From NCBI GenBank assembly GCA_003216815.1, contig QCIG01000002.1, forward strand, positions 50,676 to 114,675: a DNA stretch of 64,000 bases, given 5' to 3'. Source of the stretch: Prochlorococcus sp. AG-402-K14. GTDB taxonomy: Bacteria > Cyanobacteriota > Cyanobacteriia > PCC-6307 > Cyanobiaceae. Below the pieces are notes generated by a model, which saw only the letters and a list, made by a program, of their open reading frames with translations, was not told the origin of the DNA and ran no database searches. The position numbers were made by a program, and so were the translations under genes. Positions 387 to 17,362 of the stretch are shown one piece after another. Within the stretch, counting starts at the first letter, position 1; the number at the start of each line of letters is the position of its first letter.

Positions 387-998
387 ATGATGATTCAGCT
401 GCTCAGAAAGAAAACTAATCGAGCATTTCCTCCTAGTGAAAGGCTTAAATTTGCGTTAATTCAGAAATTTAATCTAAGAGATGGAGATAAAGTAAATGGG
501 TTTACTTTGATTGAATTAATAGTTGTTGTAATGATCATTGGAATTCTCTCTTCTATAGCTGTACCTCAGTTCTTATCCTCCGCTGATAAGGCTAAGCAAA
601 AAGAGGCGAGTCTTTTAATGGGTTCTTATTTAAAAGCTGCTCAATCTTATTACACGGAATACAGCAGTGTCCCAGTAAACGCAGGAGGTATCAAAAATTA
701 TGTTTCAGTAACTCAATGTCCAAGTAGTGGAGGCGCTTCTGCTTGTAAAAGTGCCACCCCAAGTGTAGTGAGTGATAATTCTTACCAGTGGTTTTCACCC
801 TCGGGCAATTACAGAATCCTTATGGAAAGGAATGCTCAACGTTTTCGAATAATGTCTTATCCACATGGTGGTTCATATGCCAATACAGGATATGGAGTTA
901 AAGCTTGTTTCAACCCCGCGACTGGAGGAGCAAAAGTTTTTGAGAATACTGGAACAGCTCAGCAAGGTCAGAGAAATATGGCATGGCCAAATTGTTAA
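387..998 (+). CDS. pilA: Type IV major-pilin-like prepilin (PilA-like)
   Basis: A 203-residue prepilin. The class III signal is clear: after a long leader of about 38 residues comes G^FTLIELIVVVMIIGILSSIAVPQF, with the prepilin-peptidase Gly, the conserved Glu at mature position 5 and the hydrophobic helix that packs in the fibre core. The C-terminal globular part has two Cys near the middle (QCPSSGGASAC) and two near the end (ACFNP, WPNC), fitting the disulfide-bounded D-region of pilins. The leader is long compared with the usual 6-25 residues; no in-frame start lies closer to the cleavage site than the two initial Met codons. It is first in a run of five prepilin-like genes on this strand, and the machinery lies just downstream, so it probably forms or caps the fibre. 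Confidence 0.85.
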   Translation: MMIQLLRKKTNRAFPPSERLKFALIQKFNLRDGDKVNGFTLIELIVVVMIIGILSSIAVPQFLSSADKAKQKEASLLMGSYLKAAQSYYTEYSSVPVNAGGIKNYVSVTQCPSSGGASACKSATPSVVSDNSYQWFSPSGNYRILMERNAQRFRIMSYPHGGSYANTGYGVKACFNPATGGAKVFENTGTAQQGQRNMAWPNC

Positions 999-1026
999 GA
1001 GAAGATATGAATTTATTGTTTAATTG

Positions 1027-3165
1027 ATGGAGAAGAAACCTCTAGTTAGAGTTAATGAGTTATTTTTGGATGAATCAAGTGGATTTGCTATATCACAAAT
1101 ATTAGTCTTAGGAATAGGTTTGGCAGTTATAACTAGCGGAATATTATCTGCTGCTTTGCTAGGTCTAAAAGAATCAAAAATAAGTAGACAAGAACTCATG
1201 GCTAAAACAGCTTCTGAGTCTGGTGTGACTACTTTTAGGGCACTCTTAAATGATAATGGTGATAGTCTATTTTATTATTTTTGGTTGACTAAAAACTGCT
1301 CAATTAATGCCATTGAATGTCCTACTAATATATTAAATTCAACCATTGCAAATCCATCAAATCAGTTCTGGGAAGATAAAGATTGGTGTAATGGTAATCA
1401 AAATTGCAAAGGAAGAAGAGTCGCTCCATTATGTAATTATGAAAGGAAAATAGGTTGGAATAGAACTACAAATTATTTCAAAACACTTCTTGATGGGACC
1501 CCCGACAAAATTGGATATGATCTTCTTGGAGCAAAAAAGGAATTTAATCAGTTTTATGATATTAAATCTACAGAATTTACTGGCTCAGAGGATTATGGAA
1601 TAACTTCAATATTATTAGAAGGAATTAATAAACCAATTTCTCAAAATGAAAAAACTGCATCGAATAAACTAAGAGTTAATTTCCAAGTTAATAAAAAAAT
1701 TCCTTTATCAGGGTTCGCTTTTTTGAGTATTGGTGAGAACGTAGACGATGATGAGGATTCATTATTTTTGGGTAATTTAAATATATACGGTGATAATGGA
1801 TCATCTCCTAAAGGCTCAATAATTTGGAGGAGGAATTTAGACGATAACTTTTCAGATTGTGCATCTTTCAGACAACAGGCCAAATCAAACAACTCAAATT
1901 TTCCAAGAAAAGGGAATGGTGGAATTTGGGTACAGCCACTAAAAATGCCTAAAGAACCATCACTTGGTGGAATTAAGGATATTGGTATTCTGATTTGCAC
2001 TCCTGAAGTAATAAATAGAAGAGGAACTGCATGCAAATTAAATAACTTCCAAGAAAAAAAAACAAGAAATTATTTAATACATTCTATTTTTGCTAGTAGT
2101 CCAGGCTCAAGATTTGAGGTGTCAACATCTGACGATTCCATCGTAAACTTGAAGATTCTTGGTGATATCGATATAAGTAATGGAGGTATTTTTTGTCACA
2201 GAGACAAATCATCTAAATGTGGCAGCGGGAATCCAAATAATTTAAATATCTTCTTTAGTCCACACTCTGATAATAGTGCTTCGAATTATAATAAATTAGT
2301 ATGTCATCGGAATGGAAATGGCGGAGTAAAATTAAAGAATATTCATACCATAAGTTCATTAAATACAAAATATTTACCTGCAAATAGTTTTAATATTGAT
2401 AATACAAATAATGAAAAGTTTAATGCTTTTATATATGCACCTAGTAATACCTTCATCTCAATAATGCCTGAAAACAAGTTAGTACAAACTGTCAATACCA
2501 ATAGAAATAGTGTCTTAGGATCAATGGTCGTAACTACAAGAGGAGTAAAAGGATGGATCAATGAAACAAGAGGTGGAAGATGGGAAGATAAAATGACTAA
2601 TTTATTTGTAACATCCAATAATAAATTGATACCTTCAGAGAATGGAGGAGTTACAGGTTCAATAGATACTTCATTTAAAAATCAAGATATAATAGCAATG
2701 GGTACTAAGAATGAATATCCAAAGAATAATCTTATAAAGGATGTAATTCTTGCCTATAATAGAGAAAATAAAAATTATTCACTTTTTGGATTTGAAAAGC
2801 AAAGATCGAACCAAGCTAATGATTCGAGTTCACAACGCTCATTGCCCGTAAATAAAGGTATTATAAAAAGAAATCCAGTAATTAATTTAGGAACCAATCT
2901 GAATACTAGTCTAGCGATATATTGGTTAAACTTTTATAATATTAGATTATCAATAAGGCCAACTATATCTAATAGAGATTTTTCTGGTGCTGCTTGGGTG
3001 AAAAATCTATGTTTTGACAATAGAGGAAAGAAAAGATGGTATTTCAGTGAGAAATTTTATGATCAATTTAATAAGCAGCCTAAGGAAAAGATGAAATTTG
3101 GCGTTGGATATTATAGAGGCCAGTCAATATTATTATGGGATACTTTAAGAGATTTCAGATCATGA
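1027..3165 (+). CDS. Large minor prepilin (PilX/GspK-like), 712 aa
   Basis: The N-terminus has a short basic leader then G^FAISQILVLGIGLAVITSGILSAAL, a prepilin cleavage and helix in which position 5 is Gln and not the usual Glu. Loss of Glu5 is typical of the tip-most GspK/PilX-type minor pilins. The helix is followed by about 650 residues of Asn/Ser-rich, probably beta-rich exported sequence with many Cys, far larger than ordinary minor pilins. I recognise no catalytic motif. I chose the ATG at 1027 over the TTG immediately before it. Its stop overlaps the next gene's start as ATGA, showing translational coupling within the pilin operon. Likely role: tip or adhesin-bearing minor pilin (inference). 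Confidence 0.7.
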   Translation: MEKKPLVRVNELFLDESSGFAISQILVLGIGLAVITSGILSAALLGLKESKISRQELMAKTASESGVTTFRALLNDNGDSLFYYFWLTKNCSINAIECPTNILNSTIANPSNQFWEDKDWCNGNQNCKGRRVAPLCNYERKIGWNRTTNYFKTLLDGTPDKIGYDLLGAKKEFNQFYDIKSTEFTGSEDYGITSILLEGINKPISQNEKTASNKLRVNFQVNKKIPLSGFAFLSIGENVDDDEDSLFLGNLNIYGDNGSSPKGSIIWRRNLDDNFSDCASFRQQAKSNNSNFPRKGNGGIWVQPLKMPKEPSLGGIKDIGILICTPEVINRRGTACKLNNFQEKKTRNYLIHSIFASSPGSRFEVSTSDDSIVNLKILGDIDISNGGIFCHRDKSSKCGSGNPNNLNIFFSPHSDNSASNYNKLVCHRNGNGGVKLKNIHTISSLNTKYLPANSFNIDNTNNEKFNAFIYAPSNTFISIMPENKLVQTVNTNRNSVLGSMVVTTRGVKGWINETRGGRWEDKMTNLFVTSNNKLIPSENGGVTGSIDTSFKNQDIIAMGTKNEYPKNNLIKDVILAYNRENKNYSLFGFEKQRSNQANDSSSQRSLPVNKGIIKRNPVINLGTNLNTSLAIYWLNFYNIRLSIRPTISNRDFSGAAWVKNLCFDNRGKKRWYFSEKFYDQFNKQPKEKMKFGVGYYRGQSILLWDTLRDFRS

Positions 3166-3749
3166 TTTATTTTGACTTTAAAAGATATTTCTCTTTAAAT
3201 AAGTTCGAAAAGGGCTTTGGATTGGTTGATTCAATTCTTAGTATAATGATGCTTGGAACTTTATTAACATATAGTGTTTACTTTGCATCAAAAAGAGCTG
3301 GTGTTACTAGTAAATCAAATATTACTCGAGCAATAAATAAGGAAATTCATAGAGATATAGAGAGGCTAAAGTCAGATTTATGGAATATTTATTATGATAG
3401 AAATAGTAAAGGATATAATAATAAAACAAGTAATGGAAAAATAGATTGTTATGATATGAAAGCTACTATAACTAAATTAGATAATTGGAGAAGAGGTAAT
3501 AATAGTAAATCAAATTTAATTCAATCATGGACTCCATCTAAAAGCTCAAATAAAGTATTTACAGGAGTACCTGTTAAAATTACTAGACAATTAATTACAT
3601 CTAGACCATTGAATATAACCTATACAGGTATTAATAAAAGTATAGCAAATATTACTTATAGAGTTGAATGGGGAGGGAATAATATTCAATGGTTAAGTGT
3701 TGCTTTGGGAAGTGAGGCTCATAGTTGGTGTCCTCAGATGAGTTATTAA
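3162..3749 (+). CDS. Minor prepilin-like protein (PilV/GspI-like)
   Basis: 195 residues from the ATG that overlaps the upstream stop (ATGA at 3162-3165); the longer ORF start at 3135 would overlap the previous gene by 31 bases. The leader ends KFEKG^FGLVDSILSIMMLGTLLTYSVYF, a prepilin-type cleavage and hydrophobic helix with Asp in place of Glu5. The remainder is a small Lys/Asn-rich domain ending in a Trp-Cys-Pro motif. Length, position between a K-like and an H-like pilin, and the VDSI sequence fit the PilV/GspI class of minor pilins that prime pilus assembly. The subtype is inference from order and the helix only. Confidence 0.65.
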   Translation: MIYFDFKRYFSLNKFEKGFGLVDSILSIMMLGTLLTYSVYFASKRAGVTSKSNITRAINKEIHRDIERLKSDLWNIYYDRNSKGYNNKTSNGKIDCYDMKATITKLDNWRRGNNSKSNLIQSWTPSKSSNKVFTGVPVKITRQLITSRPLNITYTGINKSIANITYRVEWGGNNIQWLSVALGSEAHSWCPQMSY

Positions 3750-4382
3750 ATGAAAATAAATTCCAAAGAAGGTTTTACAATAATAGAACTAATAGTAGTT
3801 ATTTTTTTAATTAGTTTTTTTTCTGCCTTAGGCGTACCTTCAATATTAAATTGGAAAAGAAATCAAAATGTAAATGCATATTCAAGAGAATTAAGCGAAT
3901 TTATTAGGTTAGTTAGAAAAGATTCTAGAAGATGGGGGGCGAGTTGTGATTTAAAAGTAAAACAATTAAGCTTTAATGCAGAGGGTAAAGGATTTGTTGT
4001 TCAATGTGATTATGGCAATGCTTTAAAAACTAATATTAATTGTGAGCGTGATATCTATTTGTCAAAACTTAATTCAAATAAAGAATGCAGGCTTAATTAC
4101 TTAGTCCCATCTATTAATAAAAAAAATAATATCTTTCAAGTTGTAAGTGATAGTTTTAGTACAACTCCAAATGGGAGGATAAGTAATGATGATTCAATTA
4201 TTATTGTAGTCGGGTCTATTTTTTATAATCAAGGTTCCAAACAGTTAAACTGTTTAAAAGTTACATCTCCAAGTGGACATGTTAAGCAAGGTAAATTCTC
4301 AAGAATAATAGTTTCAAATAATATTTATAGAAGTCAAATAGATAATAGAATTGATAAAAGACAATGTATTTTTAGGAGTTAA
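3750..4382 (+). CDS. Minor prepilin (FimT/GspH-like)
   Basis: A 210-residue protein that starts directly after the previous stop codon. A short leader ends KEG^FTIIELIVVIFLISFFSALGVPSILNWKRNQNVNAYSRELSEFIRLVRKDSRRWG. The cleavage site, Glu5, the hydrophobic helix and the following helix rich in RELxxxIRLVRxxSxxWG match the FimT/GspH family of pseudopilins. Several Cys in the globular part may form disulfides. It is the third minor pilin in the operon and presumably joins the tip complex. Confidence 0.75.
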   Translation: MKINSKEGFTIIELIVVIFLISFFSALGVPSILNWKRNQNVNAYSRELSEFIRLVRKDSRRWGASCDLKVKQLSFNAEGKGFVVQCDYGNALKTNINCERDIYLSKLNSNKECRLNYLVPSINKKNNIFQVVSDSFSTTPNGRISNDDSIIIVVGSIFYNQGSKQLNCLKVTSPSGHVKQGKFSRIIVSNNIYRSQIDNRIDKRQCIFRS

Positions 4383-4386
4383 ATAA

Positions 4387-5874
4387 ATGGATATTAGAGT
4401 AGAGAAAGGTTTTACACTTGCTGAATTAATAGTAACAAGTGCTATTTCTACCTCTGTTATTATTGGTGGTTTTGCCTTAGTACAAGTGTTAATGCAGACG
4501 AGTGAATTAGAAGAAAGAAGTCTAACAACGACAGGTAATGTAGAAGATGCTCTTGATTTTATAATGGATGAAGTTAATAGAGGGAAAAAAATAATAGAAA
4601 ACCAATCAGATATAAAAAATAATAATCCTATATGTTCAATTCCAAATGGTAAATTTTTATTTGGAATAAAATTACCTGGACAAGCTTTATCAAACAAAGA
4701 TTATACTAATAAAGATATTGATTCTAAAACCGGTAAGTTTAATTTATCAAAAGTTGAATGTCCTATTGTTTATTATTTAAGGAATCATACTTCTCAAGAA
4801 AAGAAAGGTTTTACCTTGTTAAGATATGGACCACAATTAACAAAAAAAGGTTTTTATGAATCCCCTTCATCAAAAAACTATAAAAGTAGTTCTTTGCTCG
4901 AGGGTATTCTTAACTCTAACCAAGAAAATGAAAATTTAATTTGTCCTCCTAATTGGAAATCTGTAAATAAAATTGAAGGATTTCAATATTGTTTGGATAA
5001 AAATAATAAAGCAATCGAAATACTTATTGGTGTTGATGATTTACTTAATCAACGTCAAAAAACAAATGTGATTTCATCCTTTGGAGGGTTTACAAGAATT
5101 CAGGATGAGGGTTTGATAAATATGAATCCAGGAGACGTTAAAGAAGGCAAAATCCCCCCTTGTTTTGGTGGACCTTGTAACTGGATGGGTGTTGGAATAA
5201 AATCCAATAAGATTACATTTATGATTGATAAATCAGGCTCAATGTATAAATATTTTAGGCATTGGAAATGCGATAAGACAAAATATGGTTGGAGAAGTTG
5301 CAGAACAGTTTATCCAAGAATTCAAGGGCAAGGGTTATTTGATGCAGCTAGATCAAACCTAAGGCAACAAGTAGTTAAATTACCAACAAGAGATGAAGTT
5401 AACAAATTAAATCAACAATATAATAGTAATTTCGAGTATGTATATTTACAAATAATTGCTTTCAATCATATAAATTACCCTCTTTTCAGTTCTGGTCCGA
5501 AAATTTTAACTCATGCTACAAAAGCTCAAGCACTTAGATGGATTGACCAGTTACGACCAGGAGGAGGAACTAATCCTTGGAATGGTTTATGTTCATCTTT
5601 ACAAGACGATAAAAATGTTGGTCAAGTCATACTACTCTCTGATGGTATGCCCAATAGGTATTCTGGTTATTGTGCCGGTAAATATGGAAAATATTCAGAT
5701 GTAATTAATGAATTTAATAGGAATATAAGAAGCAAAAAACCATCAGGTGAATTAATAATAGATTCCATCTCATTCTTTCATGATTTTTGTAACTCCAACA
5801 ATAATATTTGGGGGAGAAATTGGTTGGGTAATATTTCATCAGGCAATCAAAGTGAATGTACTCCTGTTAATTAG
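4387..5874 (+). CDS. Minor prepilin (PilW/GspJ-like) with a C-terminal von Willebrand A domain
   Basis: A 495-residue two-part protein. Residues 1-60 are a prepilin head: EKG^FTLAELIVTSAISTSVIIGGFALVQVL, with Glu5 present. From about residue 270 there is a vWA domain: the MIDAS metal site is visible as FMIDKSGSM (DxSxS, about 281-285), a Thr in PGGGTNPW (about 395) and an Asp in VILLSDGMPN (about 419). The middle has Cys-rich beta sequence. Pilin-linked vWA domains are known in some Gram-positive pili, and in Gram-negatives a vWA usually sits on PilY1, which I do not see here. Inference: this protein may do the tip adhesin or mechanosensing job of PilY1. It ends the pilin operon, convergent with pilQ. 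Confidence 0.8.
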   Translation: MDIRVEKGFTLAELIVTSAISTSVIIGGFALVQVLMQTSELEERSLTTTGNVEDALDFIMDEVNRGKKIIENQSDIKNNNPICSIPNGKFLFGIKLPGQALSNKDYTNKDIDSKTGKFNLSKVECPIVYYLRNHTSQEKKGFTLLRYGPQLTKKGFYESPSSKNYKSSSLLEGILNSNQENENLICPPNWKSVNKIEGFQYCLDKNNKAIEILIGVDDLLNQRQKTNVISSFGGFTRIQDEGLINMNPGDVKEGKIPPCFGGPCNWMGVGIKSNKITFMIDKSGSMYKYFRHWKCDKTKYGWRSCRTVYPRIQGQGLFDAARSNLRQQVVKLPTRDEVNKLNQQYNSNFEYVYLQIIAFNHINYPLFSSGPKILTHATKAQALRWIDQLRPGGGTNPWNGLCSSLQDDKNVGQVILLSDGMPNRYSGYCAGKYGKYSDVINEFNRNIRSKKPSGELIIDSISFFHDFCNSNNNIWGRNWLGNISSGNQSECTPVN

Positions 5875-5934: not shown

Positions 5935-7740
5935 TTAAATATTTTCATCATTGGTCTCTTTAATTATATTAGGAGTAACTAATATTACCAATTCTCTTTT
6001 TTCTTTACTTATTTCTTTTTTCTTAAATAATCTTCCTAGAAGAGGTAAATCTCCAAGCAAAGGTGTCTTCCACAACTTTTCTACTTCCGTATCTTGCAGA
6101 ACACCAGTTAAAATAAGGGTATCATTATTTTTAACTCTAATAGAACCTGTGTCGACTTTCCTGGTACTTAATAAATTAATCATCGGACAACCTGGAATCT
6201 CAACTTGATTAGATACACCTGTGATTTCTGGTGAAATTGTAAAAGTAATAAATTCGTTATTATCTATCCCTAGTATTCTTGCACCTAGCTTTACACCCAC
6301 TAAACCATATTCGACTGTGCATACACTACTTCCTTCTTCAGTTGAAGCATTTACAGGGACTTTATCTCCAACTTCGACATACCCATCATTCCCAAATTCT
6401 CTTCCTATTTCGCCATCACCAGCAGGACCAGAATATTCACTAAGAATAAGAGTTGGATTAGCTAAGACTTGTGCGGTGCCTTTTTTTAATTGTAGCTCTA
6501 ATTGGGTAACAAATTGCTTTGGCCATGCTAACCCTGGGTTTGAGATTGGATTGCCAAAATTAGGAGCATTATTACCAATTATAGATTTCAATATACCTTG
6601 ATCATTAACAATAAAAGTCTTACCTGTTCGAACTGCAAAGTCATTACTAAAAGAATTATCTTTGGTAACTCTTAAATCAATTATTTGAACATTAAGTGCA
6701 ACTTGCTGCTGTCTTTTGTCAAGATCTTTTAGGAAATTTTGAGCAAGTTCAACTAATCTCGGTTCACCTACCAATGTTATAGTTTGGAGCCTCTCATCAG
6801 TAGTTGCAAAAAGTCCTAAAAGTGGACCTATCGTTGCTCCATAAACCTTAACTGAGGTTTGAGATTGCTCTGTGGTTGTTGAACTATTTGATGCTCCTTC
6901 AACAGCTTCTGCTTGTGTAGCTCCTTCCGTAACAGAAGTATTAATAGTATATGTTTTTGTCACACTCGCTCCAAGATTTGCTAGATAATCTGCAGCTGAA
7001 CTAGAACTTATTTGATTCAAATTAAAAACAAATGATTTTCTTTCTTTAAAAATTGTATTTCTCACATCAGGTCCCACATAAAGAATACCTTCCTCAAATT
7101 TTGCCTGTAAGCCACTAGCCAATAAAACAGCATTAAGTGCTTTTGAATAACTTATATTATTTAAGGATATAGTTAATAATCTAGGAGAGTCTGCGTTTTG
7201 TTCGCTAGCTTCAGGTAAAGAATCTATATCTGTTAATTCAGAACCTTCTAAAGCCTCTAAATCCAATGGCTGAAACTGGTTAGAATCCTGATCAAATGAA
7301 CTTATAACTTGATTTGATCCCTGAGAATTAAAAGTAGGTTCTTGATTAACCCAAACAAAATCATAACCACCTATTTTTGCAATTTTCTGAAGGATAGTTT
7401 TCGCGGAAACTTGCCTGAAAATTAAAGTAATTTTGGGTCCATTAATATTTAATAAATTTGGATTGTATATAGATTTTTGGTTGTAGTCATCCTTAAGGGA
7501 ATCAAGTGATGCAATCAATTTACTATGATTTAAATAAATAGAACTTTCATTAAAGGATTCTAGATTACCTATATTTTTATGAGATCTAGATATATTGAGA
7601 AAACTTTTTAGAGAATAATCCAGTTTATTTAAGTGCTTTCTATCTTCATAAAAAGAATCAAAATCATATGAATTTACTGATATGGGAGCTAGAGAAAATA
7701 GGCAACCAAAAATAGCGGAAATATAGTTTCTATTAGTCAC
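5935..7740 (-). CDS. pilQ: Type IV pilus secretin PilQ
   Basis: 601 residues, outer-membrane pore for the pilus fibre. An N-terminal signal-like segment (IFGCLFSLAPISVNS) precedes a short N0/STN-like domain (ISAKTILQKIAKIGGYDFVW), a Gln/Ser/Thr-rich linker, an N1-type domain with ITLVGEPRLVELAQNFLKDLDKRQQQV, then the secretin beta-barrel with VALNVQIIDLRV and the C-terminal TPLLGDLPLLGRLFK signature followed by RELVILVTPNII. It is shorter than many cyanobacterial PilQ proteins, and I see no AMIN domains. It is the last gene of the - strand pilP-like/M/N/O/Q block, 64 bases after the PilO-like gene. Confidence 0.93.
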   Translation of the reverse strand: MTNRNYISAIFGCLFSLAPISVNSYDFDSFYEDRKHLNKLDYSLKSFLNISRSHKNIGNLESFNESSIYLNHSKLIASLDSLKDDYNQKSIYNPNLLNINGPKITLIFRQVSAKTILQKIAKIGGYDFVWVNQEPTFNSQGSNQVISSFDQDSNQFQPLDLEALEGSELTDIDSLPEASEQNADSPRLLTISLNNISYSKALNAVLLASGLQAKFEEGILYVGPDVRNTIFKERKSFVFNLNQISSSSAADYLANLGASVTKTYTINTSVTEGATQAEAVEGASNSSTTTEQSQTSVKVYGATIGPLLGLFATTDERLQTITLVGEPRLVELAQNFLKDLDKRQQQVALNVQIIDLRVTKDNSFSNDFAVRTGKTFIVNDQGILKSIIGNNAPNFGNPISNPGLAWPKQFVTQLELQLKKGTAQVLANPTLILSEYSGPAGDGEIGREFGNDGYVEVGDKVPVNASTEEGSSVCTVEYGLVGVKLGARILGIDNNEFITFTISPEITGVSNQVEIPGCPMINLLSTRKVDTGSIRVKNNDTLILTGVLQDTEVEKLWKTPLLGDLPLLGRLFKKKEISKEKRELVILVTPNIIKETNDENI

Positions 7741-7804: not shown

Positions 7805-8674
7805 TCATTGTTCTTTTGTAGGAATATTAATTATAAATTTAGAATTCATATATCCTTGTTTTGAACTTTCTGATTCACTTCCTTGATAAGAAGAAGCACC
7901 TATATTAATACATGTAGGTATTATCGTGATTTTATATGACTGTAAAAGTCTTATGAATTTTATAGTGTTAAAATATTCTGATTTAAGGCTTATCTCTAAA
8001 TAATTATTTATAAAATTAAGTTCTTTTGGAGGAAGATTATCCTGAGGAAAAGAATTAGCTTCCTCAGAATTAGAAAACCCATCATTATTGTATTCATTTG
8101 AATAGTTCTGATCTTCAGTCATTATAAAATTATTGTTATTATCTAAGTTGTTATAAGTTAAACCTAGAGTATTTTGTTCGTCCTCATTTAAAGCTCTACA
8201 TATAGAAAAAGGATCTTCATTAATTTTCATTAAAGATAAAATCTCAACATCAGATTTCAATGCAACATCTGAAATTATGCGATTAATTAATATAAGTTGG
8301 TTCTTCTCTAGAATAGTTTCCTTTAAACTAGAGAAGGGAGTTTCTATCTTCTTAATTAATTTAACTAACTTATCTCTTTCAATCGTTAAATCTGCTATTT
8401 GGTTAAAATGATCTTCATAAAGGTTGGCCTTTCTATTTAGTTTTATCAAATTAGCTATGCTTGGATATAAAAATAAATAAGAGAACAATAAAAAGCTTAA
8501 TCCACCAATTAAAAAGGGGAATGATTTATTCTTATGTATTGATTTGAGGTCATCTAATTTAAAATTTTGAATATCCTCTAATTTTATATCATTTAATTTT
8601 TTTAATAATTGACTAATATCAATAGAATTAAGATCTGAATAGATTTTTTTTAGTTTTATTTTGATGTTAGACAT
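7805..8674 (-). CDS. pilO: PilO-like inner-membrane alignment protein
   Basis: 289 residues with one membrane segment around residues 53-75 (FPFLIGGLSFLLFSYLFLYPSI), then a coiled-coil region (DHFNQIADLTIERDKLVKLIKKIETPF) and a ferredoxin-like C-terminal domain containing NYLEISLKSEYFNTIKFIRLLQSYKI, the hallmark arrangement of PilO. The sequence is divergent and has an Asn/Ser/Glu-rich insert in the C-terminal half. The start codon overlaps the stop of the PilN-like gene by one base. PilO dimerises with PilN in the periplasm to connect the motor to PilQ. The identity rests on fold-level features and synteny. Confidence 0.75.
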   Translation of the reverse strand: MSNIKIKLKKIYSDLNSIDISQLLKKLNDIKLEDIQNFKLDDLKSIHKNKSFPFLIGGLSFLLFSYLFLYPSIANLIKLNRKANLYEDHFNQIADLTIERDKLVKLIKKIETPFSSLKETILEKNQLILINRIISDVALKSDVEILSLMKINEDPFSICRALNEDEQNTLGLTYNNLDNNNNFIMTEDQNYSNEYNNDGFSNSEEANSFPQDNLPPKELNFINNYLEISLKSEYFNTIKFIRLLQSYKITIIPTCINIGASSYQGSESESSKQGYMNSKFIINIPTKEQ

Positions 8675-9384
8675 TAATTCAATAAAGCTCCAATTTTTTT
8701 GTATTCACTAAGTTTTATTAGCAATCCATTTGCTGAAGATTCAGCATATAGGGACATTTTATTTTTTAGGCTCAATGATTTTAATGATCCTTTGATTTCC
8801 GCTTTGAAAACAGATTTCTTAGCCTTATTATCCTCTGAAGAGCTTTCTTCATTGAATATCTCATTAATTGCAATAGTTTCTATGCTTATTAATGGTGATT
8901 CAATTAATAAAGTTACCATTTTATTTAAAAAATCTAAATTTGGGGAATCAGCAATAATTTTATATGCATATTGATCTATGATAATTTCATTTATAGAGAT
9001 TTTCTCGGGAATTGCATTTTGTAAATAAAAAGCAAAGAGATAAACTGGTGCACGTTCGGTATAAAAAATTTCAAAAGAATTGTATTGCGATTTTATTTCA
9101 TCTTTCTTTTTAATTGCTTTGTTAATCTGGTAATTTAAAATATTAAATTCATAATGAGAATTTTCAAATCTACTAATTTTATTTTTAGGAATTAAAGTAA
9201 ATATGTTTATTGAACCGAATATTATTATTCCAATTAAACTAGGAACCAAGATAATGGGATTATTTATTATATAATTCCCAAATAATTTATAATTATTTGA
9301 TTTATTTTGCTTTATTTTTAAACTTATAGAAGGACTAATCCATTCTTTAAGGTTGCCATCTTTAAATGCAAAGTTATATTTCAT
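8674..9384 (-). CDS. pilN: PilN-like inner-membrane alignment protein
   Basis: 236 residues. A cytoplasmic N-terminus of about 40 residues is followed by one membrane helix (NPIILVPSLIGIIIFGSINIFTLI), a coiled coil (NYQINKAIKKKDEIKSQYNSF) and a small periplasmic domain with ISINEIIIDQYAYKIIADSPNLDFLNKMVTLL, the pattern expected of PilN. It overlaps the PilM-like gene by four bases (ATGA) and the PilO-like gene by one, so it is translated as part of a coupled operon. PilN binds PilM through its cytoplasmic tail in characterised systems; the tail here (LKEWISPSISLK) is not the textbook INLLP motif. Confidence 0.75.
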   Translation of the reverse strand: MKYNFAFKDGNLKEWISPSISLKIKQNKSNNYKLFGNYIINNPIILVPSLIGIIIFGSINIFTLIPKNKISRFENSHYEFNILNYQINKAIKKKDEIKSQYNSFEIFYTERAPVYLFAFYLQNAIPEKISINEIIIDQYAYKIIADSPNLDFLNKMVTLLIESPLISIETIAINEIFNEESSSEDNKAKKSVFKAEIKGSLKSLSLKNKMSLYAESSANGLLIKLSEYKKIGALLN

Positions 9385-10547
9385 AATTTAGAAATATTTA
9401 AAATTAAGTTTGTAACTAAGATCTTTGAATCGAGGGATTGATTGATATTGCTTATATTTTTAATATTACTTTTATTGGTTTTGGAATTGTTAAAATCTTT
9501 AATTTCATCAGCTTTAAAAAATGGGGAAGGAATGTCTATATTCCTGTTTAAAATCAATGAATCTAATCCTTGACCAAAAACAATAATATTACTAACCTTA
9601 TCGTAATTATTCTCTTTCTCAATTATATTTATTGATGTTTTTAATCTATCAAAAAAATCATTTATTGAACTTTTCTCATCTTTATTGCAATATAGTATGG
9701 AGCCATAAGGAAGTTTATATGATTTAATTGCATTATGTTTATCGGTCATTATTAATTGAATTGAATTTGATTCAATATCTGCAAGTATAAAACTTTCATC
9801 TATATAAGTATCTTTTATCTCATCATATAAATGAAGTGAAGGGAAAGTTATACCAATTACTGGTAGATTAATAATTTCTAATGAATTTATCCATCCATTA
9901 ATTAGTTTTTTACTTGAGAATACAATTCTATTAAATGAATTTTTCTTATATTTAATGTTATTTATATCTGAATATGTATCATATGGTAAAAAAGGTGTAT
10001 TTGCTTTTATTTCTAACTCAGTTGGCTTGCTATTCCCTGACCTTGACACAAGTGAAATTATTGAAAATATTGAAGAAGGGAGAATTAACAATATTGGATT
10101 AGAATTAGTGTTCAATATGTTTAGCATATCTAATATTATTTGTGATAACTCTTTTGGATTCTCAACCTGATCTTTGCCTATCAGGTATCCAGGTATTGGA
10201 ATCTCAACAGATCCATTAATTATATTAGTGTTCCCCCCTCTTGTAATTGATAATATTGTGAGAACTTGATCTAAGTAAAATATTACTGTTATATGATCAC
10301 TATGTTTATCTGAGTTATTCTTTCGCTTGAAAAATGGAAATTGTTTTATTGTTTTAGCAAATTTATTTACATATTTTATTTGATTACCTTTCTTTTGGTT
10401 CTTCTTTGTATTTAGCATGCTTGGTAATTTTATTTTTTTTATTGATGATTGGTTTGTATTTTTAGTAGTCAGTTTAAATTTAATTCTATTTATTAGAATT
10501 AAATTAGGGCATATTCTTTTTATTGTTTCTTTAATACTTATCATCAT
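9381..10547 (-). CDS. pilM: PilM-like cytoplasmic actin-fold protein
   Basis: 388 residues. After a basic N-terminal stretch of about 80 residues the protein shows HITVIFYLDQVLTILSITRGG and later SFILADIESNSIQLIMTDKH, consistent with the two phosphate-loop regions of an actin-like ATPase fold as in PilM. No membrane segment is present, fitting a cytoplasmic ring protein. It lies between the PilP-like gene and the PilN-like gene, with 4-base overlaps at both ends. Sequence divergence from textbook PilM is large, so the name depends mainly on operon position and predicted fold. Confidence 0.65.
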   Translation of the reverse strand: MMISIKETIKRICPNLILINRIKFKLTTKNTNQSSIKKIKLPSMLNTKKNQKKGNQIKYVNKFAKTIKQFPFFKRKNNSDKHSDHITVIFYLDQVLTILSITRGGNTNIINGSVEIPIPGYLIGKDQVENPKELSQIILDMLNILNTNSNPILLILPSSIFSIISLVSRSGNSKPTELEIKANTPFLPYDTYSDINNIKYKKNSFNRIVFSSKKLINGWINSLEIINLPVIGITFPSLHLYDEIKDTYIDESFILADIESNSIQLIMTDKHNAIKSYKLPYGSILYCNKDEKSSINDFFDRLKTSINIIEKENNYDKVSNIIVFGQGLDSLILNRNIDIPSPFFKADEIKDFNNSKTNKSNIKNISNINQSLDSKILVTNLILNISKL

Positions 10548-11071
10548 ATTTTCATTTTTATTCTATATCTATCACTACCATCAGTTAACTCTATAAATTG
10601 CTTATCAATAGAAATTCGAGATAGTTTTAAACTTTCTCCAATCTTTTGTCCAATTTTGAGTAAGTATTCTTTTCCATTATTTTCTTTTAAAATAACAAAA
10701 GCATTTTTATTAGTTTGGTATAAACCTGATAATTTTATTTTCTTTAAAAAGTTAATCGCATCATTGGATGAATTAATTCTTTGATGAATAAATGGATCCC
10801 TTGTACTCCTTACAAGTTTAGAAACTTCTTTAGCCTCTTGTTTTGGTAATGGCAACAACTTATCGGAAATGTCTGTTTCTTTTTTAGAAATCTCTTCCGC
10901 TGAAAAGCGGAATGTTGGGTTCAAAGGTAATGTATGAATTGATTTAGTTAATGAGCTATTAGAATCTTCTTGATTTGATATTTCCTTATTAATTGTATTG
11001 GCTGTAGTGATTTGTTGAGATTGAAGGCACAGGAAGAACAAAGCAATATAATTAATTGTTTTTTTAATCAT
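10544..11071 (-). CDS. PilP-like exported protein, first gene of the pilP-like/M/N/O/Q operon
   Basis: About 175 residues if translation begins at the Met that directly opens a signal-like segment (IKKTINYIALFFLCLQSQQITTA); the ORF could start seven codons earlier at 11092. The C-terminal half reads TRDPF, then IKLSGLYQTNKNAFVILKENNGKEYLLKIGQKIGE, a small beta domain that strongly resembles the PilP/GspC homology region, which contacts PilQ. No lipobox Cys is evident at a good position, so it may be anchored or periplasmic. Gene order is unusual: PilP normally lies between pilO and pilQ, whereas here it leads the operon. It is divergent from pilB. Confidence 0.6.
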   Translation of the reverse strand: MIKKTINYIALFFLCLQSQQITTANTINKEISNQEDSNSSLTKSIHTLPLNPTFRFSAEEISKKETDISDKLLPLPKQEAKEVSKLVRSTRDPFIHQRINSSNDAINFLKKIKLSGLYQTNKNAFVILKENNGKEYLLKIGQKIGESLKLSRISIDKQFIELTDGSDRYRIKMKI

Positions 11072-11216
11072 TTCTTTTTTTATGTATGACAATTTTATGA
11101 AATTATTCTTTGGTATTTTTTATAATTCTATCTTGTTTGACTAAATTTGCTATATTGGCTAGTCAATATTAAGAATTTGGTATAAAATTAATTTAACGTT
11201 AGATAGATAATAGACG

Positions 11217-12959
11217 ATGAAGCCTGAGGATAATAGGCATAAATCACCACCCCTCCTTTCGGAAGAGCTTTGCGCCGAGGCAGGTGTAATACCTTTAAAT
11301 CTAAAAGGAAATATTTTGAAAATCGGAGCAATGAATCCTGGATACAGGAAAGTAAATCAAATTGTAGAGGATCTTAAGAAAAACAAAAATATTAGTGTAA
11401 CCATAAAGCAGATATCACCTTTGGAATGGGAGAAATGGTTTTTAGAGTCCAATAGTAATGAGTTGAATTTTGATCTTAATCTTGAAACAAATGAATTAGA
11501 TCTGCCTGACAATCAAATTACTAAAAAATCTAGCTCTCCTATGGCTGGAAAATTAAATAATGATGAAGACATCAATAATGGATTAATTGATAAATATGAT
11601 ACAAATGAAGAAGAGGATTTAGAACCAACAAGGATTGAGATTGATGAGAATGATCCACTATATAAGTTGGCGAACTCTTTAGACCAATTTCAAGAACAAG
11701 ATGAAGACGAATTTGTTAAAGATGATGAGATCCAGCTAGAGAATGATTTAAGTGATTCAGAAGATCCAATAATATCTGGAGTTGCCAGGTTATTGACTAA
11801 GTGTGTTCAACTAAGAGCATCAGATATTCATGTCGAACCCCTAGAAGAAAGATTTAGAATTAGATATAGGTTGGATGGTGTTTTAGAAGAATTAATATCA
11901 CTACCTATCTCAAATATAGGCCCCTTTGTAAGTAGATTAAAGATAATGAGCAATTTAGACATTTCTGAAAAACGTCTACCTCAAGATGGACGTCTTAGGT
12001 GTATTCTTGAAGGCCGTCAATGTGATTTTAGGGTTAGTACATTACCAGGAAGGTGGGGTGAAAAGGTTGTATTAAGATCATTAGAGCAAGATACTTTGCT
12101 GAATTTAGATATTTTAATTAATTCAGATAAAGAATTAAAATCCATAAGAGAAATGGGTGATTCTCCATATGGAATTTTAATAGTAGTAGGCCCTACTGGA
12201 AGTGGAAAGTCAACGACTTTATATTCAATACTTAATGAATTAAATAAGCCTGGAGTTAATATAAGTACAGTTGAAGATCCTGTTGAATATACACTTGATG
12301 GTATTCACCAGGTTCAAGTTTTAAGAGAGAAGGGACTGGATTTCTCAAGGGCTTTAAGATCATTGATGAGACAGGATCCAGATATTATTCTCGTAGGTGA
12401 AACTAGAGATAAAGAAACTGCTCAAACTGCAATGGAGGCGGCTTTAACGGGACATATGGTTTTTACTACTCTTCATGCAAATGATACAGCTACAGCAATT
12501 ACAAGACTTTCAGAAATGGGTATCCCTCCTTATTTAGTTGGTGCATCAGTAATAGGAGTTGTTGCACAGAGATTAGTCCGGAAGGTTTGTCCAAGATGTA
12601 GTAGAACTCGTAAATTACAATTAGGTAAAGATGATCTTGCTCTTTCACATGCTATAACCCAAGTAAAAGAGGCAAATATAACTTCCACAAAAAAATCACT
12701 TAATAAGCAGAACAAAAAAATATGTACATTGTGTGGAGGTGCTGGTTATAAAGGTAGAGCTGGTATTTATGAAGTAATGAGGATAAATGATTCTTTAAGA
12801 GAATTAATAATGAACAATGCCACCGCAGATGTGATTCGTGAAAATGCCTTTAAAAAATCAGGAAGAAGTTTACTTGCTTATGGTATGGAATTGGTTAAAA
12901 GGCAATTAACTACAATTGAGGAAGTTGAGAGAGTTTGTTTATTAGAGGAAAACTCATGA
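11217..12959 (+). CDS. pilB: Type IV pilus extension ATPase PilB
   Basis: 580 residues. A GspE/MshE N-terminal domain (about 1-90) and an acidic linker (about 95-185, rich in Asp/Glu) are followed by the AAA+-like motor: GPTGSGKSTTLYSIL Walker A, DPDIILVGETRDKETAQTA Walker B and the Asp/His boxes around TGHMVFTTLHANDTATAITRL. A zinc-binding module is visible as CPRCSR and CTLCGGAGYKGR. It powers pilin polymerisation at the inner membrane. It heads the pilB-pilT-pilC run and its stop overlaps the start of pilT (ATGA). Confidence 0.96.
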   Translation: MKPEDNRHKSPPLLSEELCAEAGVIPLNLKGNILKIGAMNPGYRKVNQIVEDLKKNKNISVTIKQISPLEWEKWFLESNSNELNFDLNLETNELDLPDNQITKKSSSPMAGKLNNDEDINNGLIDKYDTNEEEDLEPTRIEIDENDPLYKLANSLDQFQEQDEDEFVKDDEIQLENDLSDSEDPIISGVARLLTKCVQLRASDIHVEPLEERFRIRYRLDGVLEELISLPISNIGPFVSRLKIMSNLDISEKRLPQDGRLRCILEGRQCDFRVSTLPGRWGEKVVLRSLEQDTLLNLDILINSDKELKSIREMGDSPYGILIVVGPTGSGKSTTLYSILNELNKPGVNISTVEDPVEYTLDGIHQVQVLREKGLDFSRALRSLMRQDPDIILVGETRDKETAQTAMEAALTGHMVFTTLHANDTATAITRLSEMGIPPYLVGASVIGVVAQRLVRKVCPRCSRTRKLQLGKDDLALSHAITQVKEANITSTKKSLNKQNKKICTLCGGAGYKGRAGIYEVMRINDSLRELIMNNATADVIRENAFKKSGRSLLAYGMELVKRQLTTIEEVERVCLLEENS

Positions 12960-14029
12960 AAGAAGGAAAATTAATTGATTTAATGAGCGAACTTGTAAAA
13001 AGAGATGGTTCAGATCTTCATTTAACAGGAGATAGTATTCCATTTTTTAGGGTTCAAGGTGAAATCCTTCCTGCTTCAAATCAAAATCTATCTATCTTAG
13101 AACTTAGATCAGAATTAGAAAAACTTTTAGGTTCAAAAAAATTAGATGTTTTTGATAAGGAAAAAGAACTTGACTGTAGCTTTGGTATTGAAGGAATTGC
13201 TAGATTTAGAATCAATATTTTTTTAGATAGAGGAAAAATTGCTTGCGTCATGCGAGCATTGAGTACAGATATTCCAACTTTTTCAAATATTGGTTTACCA
13301 GAAAGTGTTCAACAATTATTAAATAGGCCAAGGGGTTTGATTTTAGTCACGGGTCCCACAGGATCTGGCAAGACAACAACCCTTGCGAGCTCTATTGATT
13401 GGATAAATTCAAATAAATCTCATCATATACTTACAATTGAAGATCCAATTGAATTTATTTTTAAAAATAAGAATTGTTTAGTTAGACAAAGAGAAGTAGG
13501 AGAGGATACTAATTCATTTTCTAGAGCCTTAAGATCAGCATTAAGAGAAGATCCAGATATAATACTCGTTGGTGAAATGAGAGATTTAGAAACAATAAGT
13601 TTGGCAATAACAGCAGCTGAAACAGGACATCTTGTAATGGGAACATTGCATACAGCTTCTGCCTCTCAAACAATTGATAGAATAATTGATGTATTTCCAA
13701 CAGCCCAACAACAACAGGTTAGAGTTCAATTATCAGCTTCATTAATAGGAGTTATTTCTCAAACACTTTGCCAAACTACTGAGAGAAAAAGAACATTGGC
13801 AGCTGAAATATTGGTGAATAATAATGCGGTAGCAAATCTAATTAGAGAATCAAAGGCATCTCAAGTTTATAGCCAGATTCAAATAGGTGCAAAATATGGG
13901 ATGCAGACTCTAGAGCAATCTTTATCTGAATTAGTTTCAGAAGGAGTAATTACTAAAGAAGAGGCCTTATATAAATCAAATAGGCCAAATGTTTTACAAA
14001 GTCTAATAGACCAAGAGATTGCAAATTAA
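12956..14029 (+). CDS. pilT: Type IV pilus retraction ATPase PilT
   Basis: 357 residues from the ATG overlapping the pilB stop. The ORF start at 12935 would lie inside pilB and lacks support. Motifs: GPTGSGKTTTLAS Walker A, EDPDIILVGEMRD Walker B, ETGHLVMGTLHTASASQTIDRIIDVFP, and a C-terminal VANLIRESKASQVYSQIQIGAKYGMQTLE that corresponds to the AIRNLIRE retraction motif of PilT. It depolymerises pilin during retraction, the step needed for twitching and DNA uptake in other bacteria. Its presence argues that these pili are dynamic. Confidence 0.95.
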   Translation: MKEGKLIDLMSELVKRDGSDLHLTGDSIPFFRVQGEILPASNQNLSILELRSELEKLLGSKKLDVFDKEKELDCSFGIEGIARFRINIFLDRGKIACVMRALSTDIPTFSNIGLPESVQQLLNRPRGLILVTGPTGSGKTTTLASSIDWINSNKSHHILTIEDPIEFIFKNKNCLVRQREVGEDTNSFSRALRSALREDPDIILVGEMRDLETISLAITAAETGHLVMGTLHTASASQTIDRIIDVFPTAQQQQVRVQLSASLIGVISQTLCQTTERKRTLAAEILVNNNAVANLIRESKASQVYSQIQIGAKYGMQTLEQSLSELVSEGVITKEEALYKSNRPNVLQSLIDQEIAN

Positions 14030-14039
14030 TACTTTATAA

Positions 14040-15401
14040 ATGGATTATAACTTTATAAATGATGAAAATTTAAGAGAAAAATTAATAAATGCAAGATTAA
14101 TAAGAGATGTTCAGGATAATAAAAATGAGTCAATTCCTATCAAGATTTCGGCAAATTTAATTGATGGTGAAAAGTATTCAACTAATAAAATACAATCAAA
14201 AAATAAGGATTCGAAAAAAACATATAGAAAAAAAGTAAAGCAAGTACAAAATGTTATAAAACAAAACGAAAGTGATAGAGAATCTTCTACTAAGCATAGA
14301 AGAAATCGAGAAACAAGACATAAAAGGAATAATTTAAATAAAAAATATTTAAAGCTAAAAGCACCCCCAACAAAAGATCTAGCAGTTACAACAAAACAAT
14401 TATCTGCAATGATTAGAACAGGCTTACCTCTTCTTGAAGCCTTGAATCTAATATCTGAAAGTACAGAAAATAGATCATTAAAATTTGTCTTCAAGGAAAC
14501 ATCTATAGGAATAAGTAGAGGTTCTACACTTGTAGAGAATTTAGAAAAATATCCTAGTATATTTAGTGATATGTATTTAGCACTTGTATCTGCTGGAGAA
14601 ACAGCAGGATTACTACCTGAGGTTTTAGAAAGGGAAGCTGAATTACTTGAGAGTTTAGCAAAAGTTAAATCACAAATAAAAAGTGCATTAGCCTATCCAA
14701 TTGCCATTTTCCTTATTACAGTAATAGTTGTAATTTTAATGCTTTTATTTGTAATACCTATTTTCGTAGAAATTTATGAGGGATCTGGTGCAAATCTTCC
14801 AGCTTTAACAAAATTCCTAGTTGATTCATCTAACTTAATGAGAAAAGGTGAGTTTTATCTGTTTGGATTGCCTTCATTAGTATTCTTTTATATAGTTATT
14901 AAAAAAGAAACTAAGAAATATTCTTTTAAACTTTGGAGAGATAGATTGCTACTTAAGTTGCCAATTACTAAAGATTTAATAACTAAATATTGTTTGGCTA
15001 ATTTTGCTAGGACTCTATCAGCTTTAAGTACAGCAGGCGTACCTATATTAGAAGCATTACAAATATCTAAACGAACATTAAGTAATATAGTCTTTAAGCA
15101 AGTTGTAGATAGGATGTATAATCAAATTAGATCTGGTTCACAATTTCATACTGTATTAATTGAAGAAAAAGTCATCCCAATCATGTTTACATCTATGTTC
15201 CGTATAGGAGAAGAGACTGGAGAATTAAGTCAAATGGTTACTAAGCTAGCTGATTTTTATGAGGACGAAGTTTCAAATACTGTCAAAGCTCTAACTTCTA
15301 TTTTAGAGCCACTACTAATTGTTTTTGTTGCAACAATTGTAGCAGTAATTCTTGTTGCAATGTATCTACCTATGTTTAATATGATGAATAATGTAAGATA
15401 A
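14040..15401 (+). CDS. pilC: Type IV pilus inner-membrane platform protein PilC
   Basis: 453 residues with two T2SSF domains. The first begins near KDLAVTTKQLSAMIRTGLPLLEALNLI and the second near KYCLANFARTLSALSTAGVPILEALQISK, each followed by long hydrophobic helices (YPIAIFLITVIVVILMLLFVIPIFV; TSILEPLLIVFVATIVAVILVAMYLPMF). The first ~110 residues are very basic and low in complexity (KKTYRKKVKQ, HRRNRETRHKRNN), longer than the usual N-terminus, possibly a contact surface for PilB/PilT or nucleic acid. It follows pilT by 10 bases. Confidence 0.94.
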   Translation: MDYNFINDENLREKLINARLIRDVQDNKNESIPIKISANLIDGEKYSTNKIQSKNKDSKKTYRKKVKQVQNVIKQNESDRESSTKHRRNRETRHKRNNLNKKYLKLKAPPTKDLAVTTKQLSAMIRTGLPLLEALNLISESTENRSLKFVFKETSIGISRGSTLVENLEKYPSIFSDMYLALVSAGETAGLLPEVLEREAELLESLAKVKSQIKSALAYPIAIFLITVIVVILMLLFVIPIFVEIYEGSGANLPALTKFLVDSSNLMRKGEFYLFGLPSLVFFYIVIKKETKKYSFKLWRDRLLLKLPITKDLITKYCLANFARTLSALSTAGVPILEALQISKRTLSNIVFKQVVDRMYNQIRSGSQFHTVLIEEKVIPIMFTSMFRIGEETGELSQMVTKLADFYEDEVSNTVKALTSILEPLLIVFVATIVAVILVAMYLPMFNMMNNVR

Positions 15402-15416
15402 TATCTTAGCTTTCTA

Positions 15417-16265
15417 TTAATTAGGTCCATAAAATAATATTTTATTCCAAAACTCATTTCCTAGAGTTAAAACACATATTCCACCAATGCTCATAAAAGG
15501 TGCAAAAGGAATCAAACTTCCAGGCTTTATTTTATTGATAAAGATTCCAACGCATGTAAATATTCCTGCAAAATATATAGATAGTAGTGATGATAGAAGC
15601 AAGCCATTCATTCCAAGCCATGCTCCTAAGCAAGCTGCTAAATAAGAATCTCCCTTTCCTAATGCAGGCTTTTTGAATAATTTTTTACCTAGAAAACCAA
15701 TTATTTCATAAGTCGTGAATCCTATGAATATAGCATAAAAATGATTAATTATAGAGCTTTTTGTAATAAAAAATTCACCTATAAAATATGAATTTAAAAT
15801 TGTAAATATAAGACCAAGACAAATACTAGATAAGCATAATACTGATGGTATTAGTAAATACTCTATATCAATTAAAGCGATACTTACAAATAAAATAAGA
15901 AATACAGAGGTTGATAGATTTAATAATAAATCAATAGCATTATTATTAAAATAAGAGTACGCAGAAGTACAAGTTGTGAAAATTATTGCAAATGCTATTT
16001 CTACAGTTATGTATCTCAGTGATATTTTCTTATTGCAATTTGAGCATCTTCCTTTCAATCTAAGCCAACTAAATATTGGAATATTATCTATAATTTTTAT
16101 TGTATTGTTGCAATTCGGGCAATAACTTCTTGGATGAATAATTGATATTTTACGTGGTATGCGATAAGTGACAACATTTATAAAGCTACCTAAGCATAGT
16201 CCAAGTAAAAATTTTAACATTATTTCTATAATTATTATCATATTTACGAACTCTCTTTTATTCAA
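15417..16265 (-). CDS. pilD: Prepilin peptidase / N-methyltransferase PilD
   Basis: 282 residues, polytopic. The N-terminal domain has GLCLGSFINVVTYRIPR and two zinc-type CxxC pairs (CPNC, CSNC). The two catalytic Asp of the A24 family are in IDIEYLLIP and GKGDSYLAA (GxGD). It cleaves prepilin leaders after Gly and methylates the new N-terminus, so it should serve the five prepilins of this locus. The start is uncertain: Met codons at residues 9 and 16 also precede the first membrane helix. It ends convergently with pilC, 15 bases away. Confidence 0.94.
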   Translation of the reverse strand: MNKREFVNMIIIIEIMLKFLLGLCLGSFINVVTYRIPRKISIIHPRSYCPNCNNTIKIIDNIPIFSWLRLKGRCSNCNKKISLRYITVEIAFAIIFTTCTSAYSYFNNNAIDLLLNLSTSVFLILFVSIALIDIEYLLIPSVLCLSSICLGLIFTILNSYFIGEFFITKSSIINHFYAIFIGFTTYEIIGFLGKKLFKKPALGKGDSYLAACLGAWLGMNGLLLSSLLSIYFAGIFTCVGIFINKIKPGSLIPFAPFMSIGGICVLTLGNEFWNKILFYGPN

Positions 16266-16495: not shown

Positions 16496-17362
16496 ATGCA
16501 AAAGTCAAAGAAATTCAAGATCGGGGCTTTGATTTTTACTTCATTGAATTTGTTTTTTGCTCCTGCTTTCCCTGGCGAGATTTACCCAAAAGCTGTTTAC
16601 AAGAAGCATGCTGCTTTGATAAATGAGCAAATAGCTATAAAAAATCAATCGTCTATTAAGCTTAAAGGAACATGTAATTCCTCAAAGTTATGCACAATTG
16701 CAATTGACGGAGAAGGGATTTTTACAACTCATGGTGATCAAATAAAAAGTGATCGAATAATTGGATGGACTATTGCAAATACAACAAACTCTGGCGGCGT
16801 TCTCTTTTTAAGTAGAAATGAAGATTATAGATTTCTAATCAAATACTTTGATGACTTAGGTAATCGAAATATTAGTGAAATCGGTTTTTATAATTTTAAA
16901 TCCGCTCAAAGTTTTATGAATTCGCTTGAATTGCTTTCAGGACTTTCTCTTAATCATGATCAAGCTGGTATGACGACACACTGTTTAGCAATTGGCAAAG
17001 ATAATTTTTCAGGTACTGATATTGATCAAATATCAGACGTAAATAAAAATTATTATGAAAGAGGAATCAAGAGGAATACGTTAATAGGTTCTACAGCTGG
17101 AGCGATAGCAGGAGCAGGAGTAGGTGATCTTGTGGGAGAGGCTGCCTCTATTACTACTGGAACAATTGCTGGTGGAATAATAGGAGGTTTTGTAGGTAAT
17201 TCATTTGGGAAAAACTCAGGTAATTTAAGCTTGAAAAGGAATGTTGTAAGTGAAGTTAGGAGTCAGCCAGCCAACTCGACCTCCTTCAATGATGGTTCTT
17301 ATAAGCATCGTGATGCTTGCAAGGATCCTGTTGTTCTAAGATCGCACCATCATCATCATTAA
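16496..17362 (+). CDS. Exported glycine-zipper protein with natural C-terminal histidine tail
   Basis: 288 residues. A signal peptide is visible (KKFKIGALIFTSLNLFFAPAFPG). Residues about 45-160 form a soluble domain with one CNSSKLC pair. A glycine-zipper hairpin follows (GSTAGAIAGAGVGDLVGEAASITTGTIAGGIIGGFVGNSFG), of the kind seen in outer-membrane or envelope proteins. The end is RSHHHHH, five consecutive His. I do not recognise the soluble domain. The location is probably envelope. The His tail could bind metal (inference). Confidence 0.65.
   Translation: MQKSKKFKIGALIFTSLNLFFAPAFPGEIYPKAVYKKHAALINEQIAIKNQSSIKLKGTCNSSKLCTIAIDGEGIFTTHGDQIKSDRIIGWTIANTTNSGGVLFLSRNEDYRFLIKYFDDLGNRNISEIGFYNFKSAQSFMNSLELLSGLSLNHDQAGMTTHCLAIGKDNFSGTDIDQISDVNKNYYERGIKRNTLIGSTAGAIAGAGVGDLVGEAASITTGTIAGGIIGGFVGNSFGKNSGNLSLKRNVVSEVRSQPANSTSFNDGSYKHRDACKDPVVLRSHHHHH

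Follow-up and report, generated by a model that had tools for sequence, protein, structure and literature searches.

A von Willebrand A-bearing minor pilin, probably a tip adhesin, in a type IVa pilus operon of Prochlorococcus

Our analysis indicates that a minor-pilin gene of Prochlorococcus sp. AG-402-K14 encodes a pilin joined to a C-terminal von Willebrand A (vWA) module, and that a retractable type IVa pilus probably displays this protein at its tip, with the vWA module serving as a MIDAS-bearing adhesion head of the kind found in S. sanguinis PilB. The gene lies at 4387..5874 (+) of the window, which is the whole stretch of DNA that was analyzed (64,000 nt; GCA_003216815.1, contig QCIG01000002.1, forward strand, 50,676-114,675). 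The most likely function is that of a tip-displayed adhesin or tip cap, and the adhesion head is the best-supported reading, in line with the initial annotation, whose proposal of a self-contained tip adhesin remains the best account of the protein. The same annotation contrasted the fused vWA pilin with well-studied Gram-negative pili, where the vWA is on PilY1, but vWA-bearing minor pilins were already known: the bimodular S. sanguinis PilB has been solved, and its vWA is a demonstrated adhesin whose MIDAS is functional (PMC8179133). The window protein is therefore an additional member of the known bimodular vWA pilins, a new branch and not a new type.

The reading frame is intact, starts with ATG, and encodes 495 aa, assigned to the W position of a minor-pilin row by sequence, Pfam, family profiles, and synteny. 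The prepilin leader MDIRVEKG (4387..4410, +), recognized from the sequence and an N_methyl match, is predicted to be cleaved before Phe9. In the site MDIRVEKG/FTLAELIV, Gly-1 is residue 8, Phe+1 is residue 9, and Glu5 is residue 13, so that EKG/FTLAE has the Gly-1 and Glu5 of a class III signal peptide. Alignment delimits a pilin module at residues about 9-255 (4411..5151, +), and profiles together with alignment delimit the vWA module at residues about 270-495 (5194..5871, +). All five MIDAS residues of the pattern DxSxS, T, D are present in the alignment: D281, S283, and S285 in motif 1, DKSGS (residues 281-285; 5227..5241, +), T395 within GGGTN (5569..5571, +), and D419 within LLSDG (5641..5643, +). 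Motifs and family profiles thus agree with the earlier description of a prepilin and a vWA with complete MIDAS in one polypeptide. Minor pilins usually give low single-sequence Pfam scores, and here both ends stay under the cut-off (N_methyl, 18.8 bits; VWA_3, 16.4 bits), the IV_pilin_GFxxxE and N_methyl matches slightly so, while the matches of the N terminus to GspJ (13.0 bits versus a cut-off of 64.85) and HpsC (21.4 bits versus 200) are far below.

The assignment of the C-terminal module to vWA is firm from family profiles. The columns DxSGSM, GGTxPW, and DG are common to all 15 aligned MIDAS-intact homologues, 14 of which match a Pfam VWA family. When a family profile of the module was compared with 177,635 distinct PDB sequences, the top match was S. 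sanguinis PilB (7b7p, E=1.1e-7), and the PilB metal-site mutant 7ba2 was also matched (E=3.8e-6); a second profile, built from six short-type relatives, again placed PilB first (E=2.3e-5). PilB was reached with MIDAS-intact vWA profiles only: when the profile covered every full-length homologue, with or without the MIDAS, PilB was not retrieved, the window protein alone as query retrieved nothing relevant from the PDB, and between the pilin modules of the window family and of PilB there was no match. AlphaFold, with the window and L001 (see below) sequences as its only input, returned a mean pLDDT of 30.7 for the full protein and 32.0 for the vWA module alone, and with values of about 31 the fold assignment depends on the sequence profiles.

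The vWA pilin gene is the last of a pilA-K-V-H-W minor-pilin operon, beyond which lie a convergent PilQ-O-N-M row, then PilB-T-C and PilD. Upstream are a major-pilin-like PilA of 203 aa with GFTLIE (387..998, +; sequence, family matches, and synteny), a large K-position minor pilin of 713 aa with a TTG start (1024..3165, +) and a V-position minor pilin of 204 aa with GFGLVD and Asp5 (3135..3749, +), both assigned by sequence and synteny, and an H/FimT-position minor pilin of 210 aa with GFTIIE (3750..4382, +; sequence, family matches, and synteny). The K-position protein has Gln instead of Glu at mature position 5 (FAISQ). It was initially called GspK-like; no GspK match was obtained in Pfam or NCBIfam and no PDB match up to E 1, so that no profile links it to GspK and the label comes down to size, position, and Gln5. 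Downstream, the PilQ secretin of 601 aa (5935..7740, -) is assigned by family matches, synteny, and the PilQ tree. Position and synteny identify the PilO-position (7805..8674, -) and PilN-position (8674..9384, -) alignment proteins and the PilM-position protein (9381..10547, -), and position alone a small PilP-position protein of 182 aa (10544..11092, -). The PilB extension ATPase with Walker A GPTGSGKST (11217..12959, +), the PilT-type retraction ATPase (12935..14029, +), the PilC platform protein (14040..15401, +), and the PilD prepilin peptidase (15417..16265, -) were assigned from sequence and synteny. Beside pilD, a 288-aa open reading frame (16496-17362, +) has a natural C-terminal end of five histidines (...VLRSHHHHH).

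The following account of processing, placement at the tip, metal coordination, adhesion, and ligand is inferred. PilD would cleave the prepilin in the GspJ/PilW position after Gly8, and the N-terminal helix would be built into the retractable type IVa pilus alongside the neighboring K, V, and H minor pilins, with the bulky C-terminal vWA module placed at the pilus tip. The tip position is likely: in modeling, the bulky C-terminal vWA of PilB fits the filament tip only (PMC8179133), and the window gene lies next to those of its K, V, and H partners. There the module would act as an exposed adhesion head, working as in S. sanguinis PilB; its MIDAS, complete in the window lineage, would coordinate Mg2+ or Mn2+, and the head would bind a ligand carried by particles, other cells, or phage.

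The complete MIDAS stressed in the initial annotation is a true feature of the window protein, but it has been lost in most of its close relatives, where three of the five residues are gone. We followed the site on a maximum-likelihood tree, calculated from 36 homologues with the MIDAS columns left out. The site is intact in 11 of 11 Synechococcus-type proteins and in all seven short-type Prochlorococcus proteins (six genomes). Inside the long type, the window protein pairs (support 99/97) with the 52% identical protein L001 of Prochlorococcus sp. AG-409-I11 (same contig as G090), and both are MIDAS intact. The other long-type proteins retain D281 and S283 and differ in the remaining residues: G171 has T to S as its sole MIDAS change, G154 and G383 have S285N, T395S, and D419S, and eleven further proteins, with the motif DxSx[FYLAV], have S285 replaced by F, Y, L, A, or V, T395 by I or V, and D419 by A. 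The site was lost separately in G053 and G093, and the minimum number of state changes for MIDAS on the tree is two.

Altogether, 13 Prochlorococcus-type homologues have lost MIDAS residues and kept the vWA module, and purifying selection acts on both modules in related pairs. For pairs within the MIDAS-lost long type, dN/dS of the vWA part is 0.10-0.17 (NG86), close to that of the pilin part and to that of intact pairs, which implies that the module is maintained even where a normal metal site is missing. The finding that S. sanguinis PilB with metal binding abolished still supports piliation and fibronectin binding (PMC8179133) agrees with this. With the MIDAS gone from the majority of close relatives, a metal-dependent adhesion role cannot hold for the whole family. 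We tentatively suggest, at somewhat less than even chances, that in the Prochlorococcus type the site was removed stepwise (first T395S, then loss of S285 and D419, finally all three residues hydrophobic or Ala) while the head was kept for a metal-independent tip function such as a cap, a primer, or metal-free binding, and that the window lineage has the ancestral metal-dependent form.

The same 13 homologues and the S. sanguinis mutant would also suit a vWA head that serves chiefly to cap the tip structurally or to prime assembly, with a dispensable MIDAS. PilY1 has such a role, together with minor pilins, in Myxococcus, and no PilY1 seems to be available for priming here. We consider this account rather unlikely, since MIDAS is strictly kept in every aligned Synechococcus-type protein and likewise in both the short-type and the window branches, and since beyond the family, where PilY1 is lacking and no vWA pilin was detected, many cyanobacteria are known to be piliated.

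The initial annotation had seen no PilY1. None was found in the genome of the window with PF05567 either, but the absence is not special to the strain. The assembly is 84.8% complete and control genomes were silent in the same search, and we therefore place weight on the class-wide search, in which 291 Cyanobacteriia genomes yielded one match (123.7 bits), showing that a true PilY1 propeller can be detected in this way. The matching locus (L102) is on a 4-kb contig, C299, of G454, an assembly with 88% completeness and 2% contamination, and the propeller may be foreign or a contaminant. Absence of PilY1 is thus the rule across essentially the whole class, whether or not a lineage has vWA pilins, so the vWA pilin does not stand for a special replacement of PilY1 in this strain. 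The vWA pilin itself has no PF05567 beta-propeller according to Pfam. A PF13519 search detected no other vWA in the window genome, but it also missed the 4387-5874 protein and so carries no weight.

Two further roles had been raised for the vWA tip, and neither is favored by the gene content. Minor pilins of several competence pili bind DNA, and transformation of S. elongatus requires a PilW (PMC12288463), so a DNA receptor for natural transformation could be envisaged. ComEC was found in 9 of 10 Synechococcus-type genomes, whereas the same search detected it in none of 31 Prochlorococcus-sized genomes (that of the window and 30 others), many of them at least 99% complete. On this ground we rejected the DNA uptake reading as highly improbable. 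The vWA of PilY1 is also a proposed mechanosensor, and by analogy the tip could sense contact or force and signal to the cell from a pilus that, with PilT present, is probably retractable; no chemosensory or c-di-GMP genes were noticed adjacent to the pilus genes within the window, and we judge such a sensor quite unlikely. Adhesion by the tip-displayed head remains our preferred reading.

The same gene row and machine occur in seven genus groups (g1, g4, g11, g15, g18, g51, and g53), and the machine adjoining the vWA pilin (PilQONM/BTCD) is kept in many loci. H is located before pilA in short-type loci, and g54 has a reduced locus in which W is flanked by two pilA copies. Synechococcus-sized genomes (g5, g25, g30, and g35) carry a more divergent pilA-K-V-H-W operon, in some of them twice, with W proteins of 522-631 aa that have the vWA at their C-terminal end. 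No full-length match combining pilin and vWA was found outside the family among the 291 Cyanobacteriia genomes. Other W-type pilins differ: in a third W-type pilin of Synechococcus-sized genomes, RTX calcium-binding repeats (PF00353; L060:10866-12248 and L101:280-1629) replace the vWA at the C terminus, and W-like pilins of other cyanobacteria have other cargo, e.g., PASTA repeats. The W-position pilin is thus a carrier of variable cargo.

Several loci show further variation at this position. G307 has two vWA pilins flanking one pilus machine (L067:2836-4209 and L067:15596-16957), both with an intact MIDAS; the pair has a dN of 0.118 in the vWA parts versus 0.063 in the pilin parts and a raised dN/dS of 0.39. 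In G009, contig C11 contains an orphan fragment of about 67 aa (L029:5215-5403, -) whose match is confined to the final portion of the vWA module and which is either a gene remnant or a silent cassette. On contig C17 of the same genome, a second W-type gene beside a pilA copy (L005:1189-2286) encodes 365 aa with the same pilin module and an unrelated cysteine-rich C terminus in which Pfam finds no domain; we did not retain it as a module swap, as it may instead be a decayed gene.

The main branches of the PilQ tree match those of the W tree, so the pilus locus moves as one unit. G000, G029, and G009, all from the window's genus group, fall on three separate PilQ branches, closest to genomes of other genera. 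Among 41 genomes of the genus group, a secretin like the window PilQ occurs in only eight, and five of these have another type of pilus that lacks K, V, H, and W. This other locus (L021-L025, in G005, G001, G007, G023, and G008 of the same genus group) encodes pilins of about 170 and 400 aa and has no K/V/H/W row and no vWA pilin. The pilus locus behaves as an accessory block that is exchanged or differentially lost between lineages.

Pili help picocyanobacteria resist sinking and grazing according to a 2021 study (PMC7994388), and a tip vWA is a concrete candidate for the means by which these highly abundant phototrophs attach to particles, cells, or phage. A vWA pilin is mentioned neither in that study nor in a 2025 review of cyanobacterial pili, and the titles and abstracts on vWA, PilY1, and pilins, which represent the literature in part, describe none in the cyanobacterial phylum. 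What the present family adds to the known bimodular pilins is the occurrence of vWA pilins throughout a picocyanobacterial family and the stepwise loss of their metal site. The natural series of MIDAS-plus and MIDAS-minus proteins offers a direct test of the need for metal coordination in vWA pilins.

Among known systems, PilY1/PilC proteins with an N-terminal vWA, such as PilY1 of Pseudomonas aeruginosa, carry a vWA that minor pilins present on the tip of type IV pili, as is likely for the window protein; PilY1, however, is no pilin and has a C-terminal beta-propeller (PF05567), whereas the window protein is a pilin without a propeller. The GspJ/PilW minor (pseudo)pilins and, in filamentous cyanobacteria, HpsC are encoded at the same operon position, next to H-, V-, and K-like pilins, but are devoid of a vWA module. 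The closest parallel, S. sanguinis PilB, differs in that its host is monoderm, while the host of the window protein is a diderm cyanobacterium, and in that the window gene belongs to a five-gene pilA-K-V-H-W operon and the MIDAS is degenerate in many relatives. Both proteins have a class III signal peptide, Glu5, and the same order of modules, with the pilin part first and the MIDAS-bearing vWA at the C terminus, and they are close in size, with 454 aa in mature PilB and 487 aa in the window protein.
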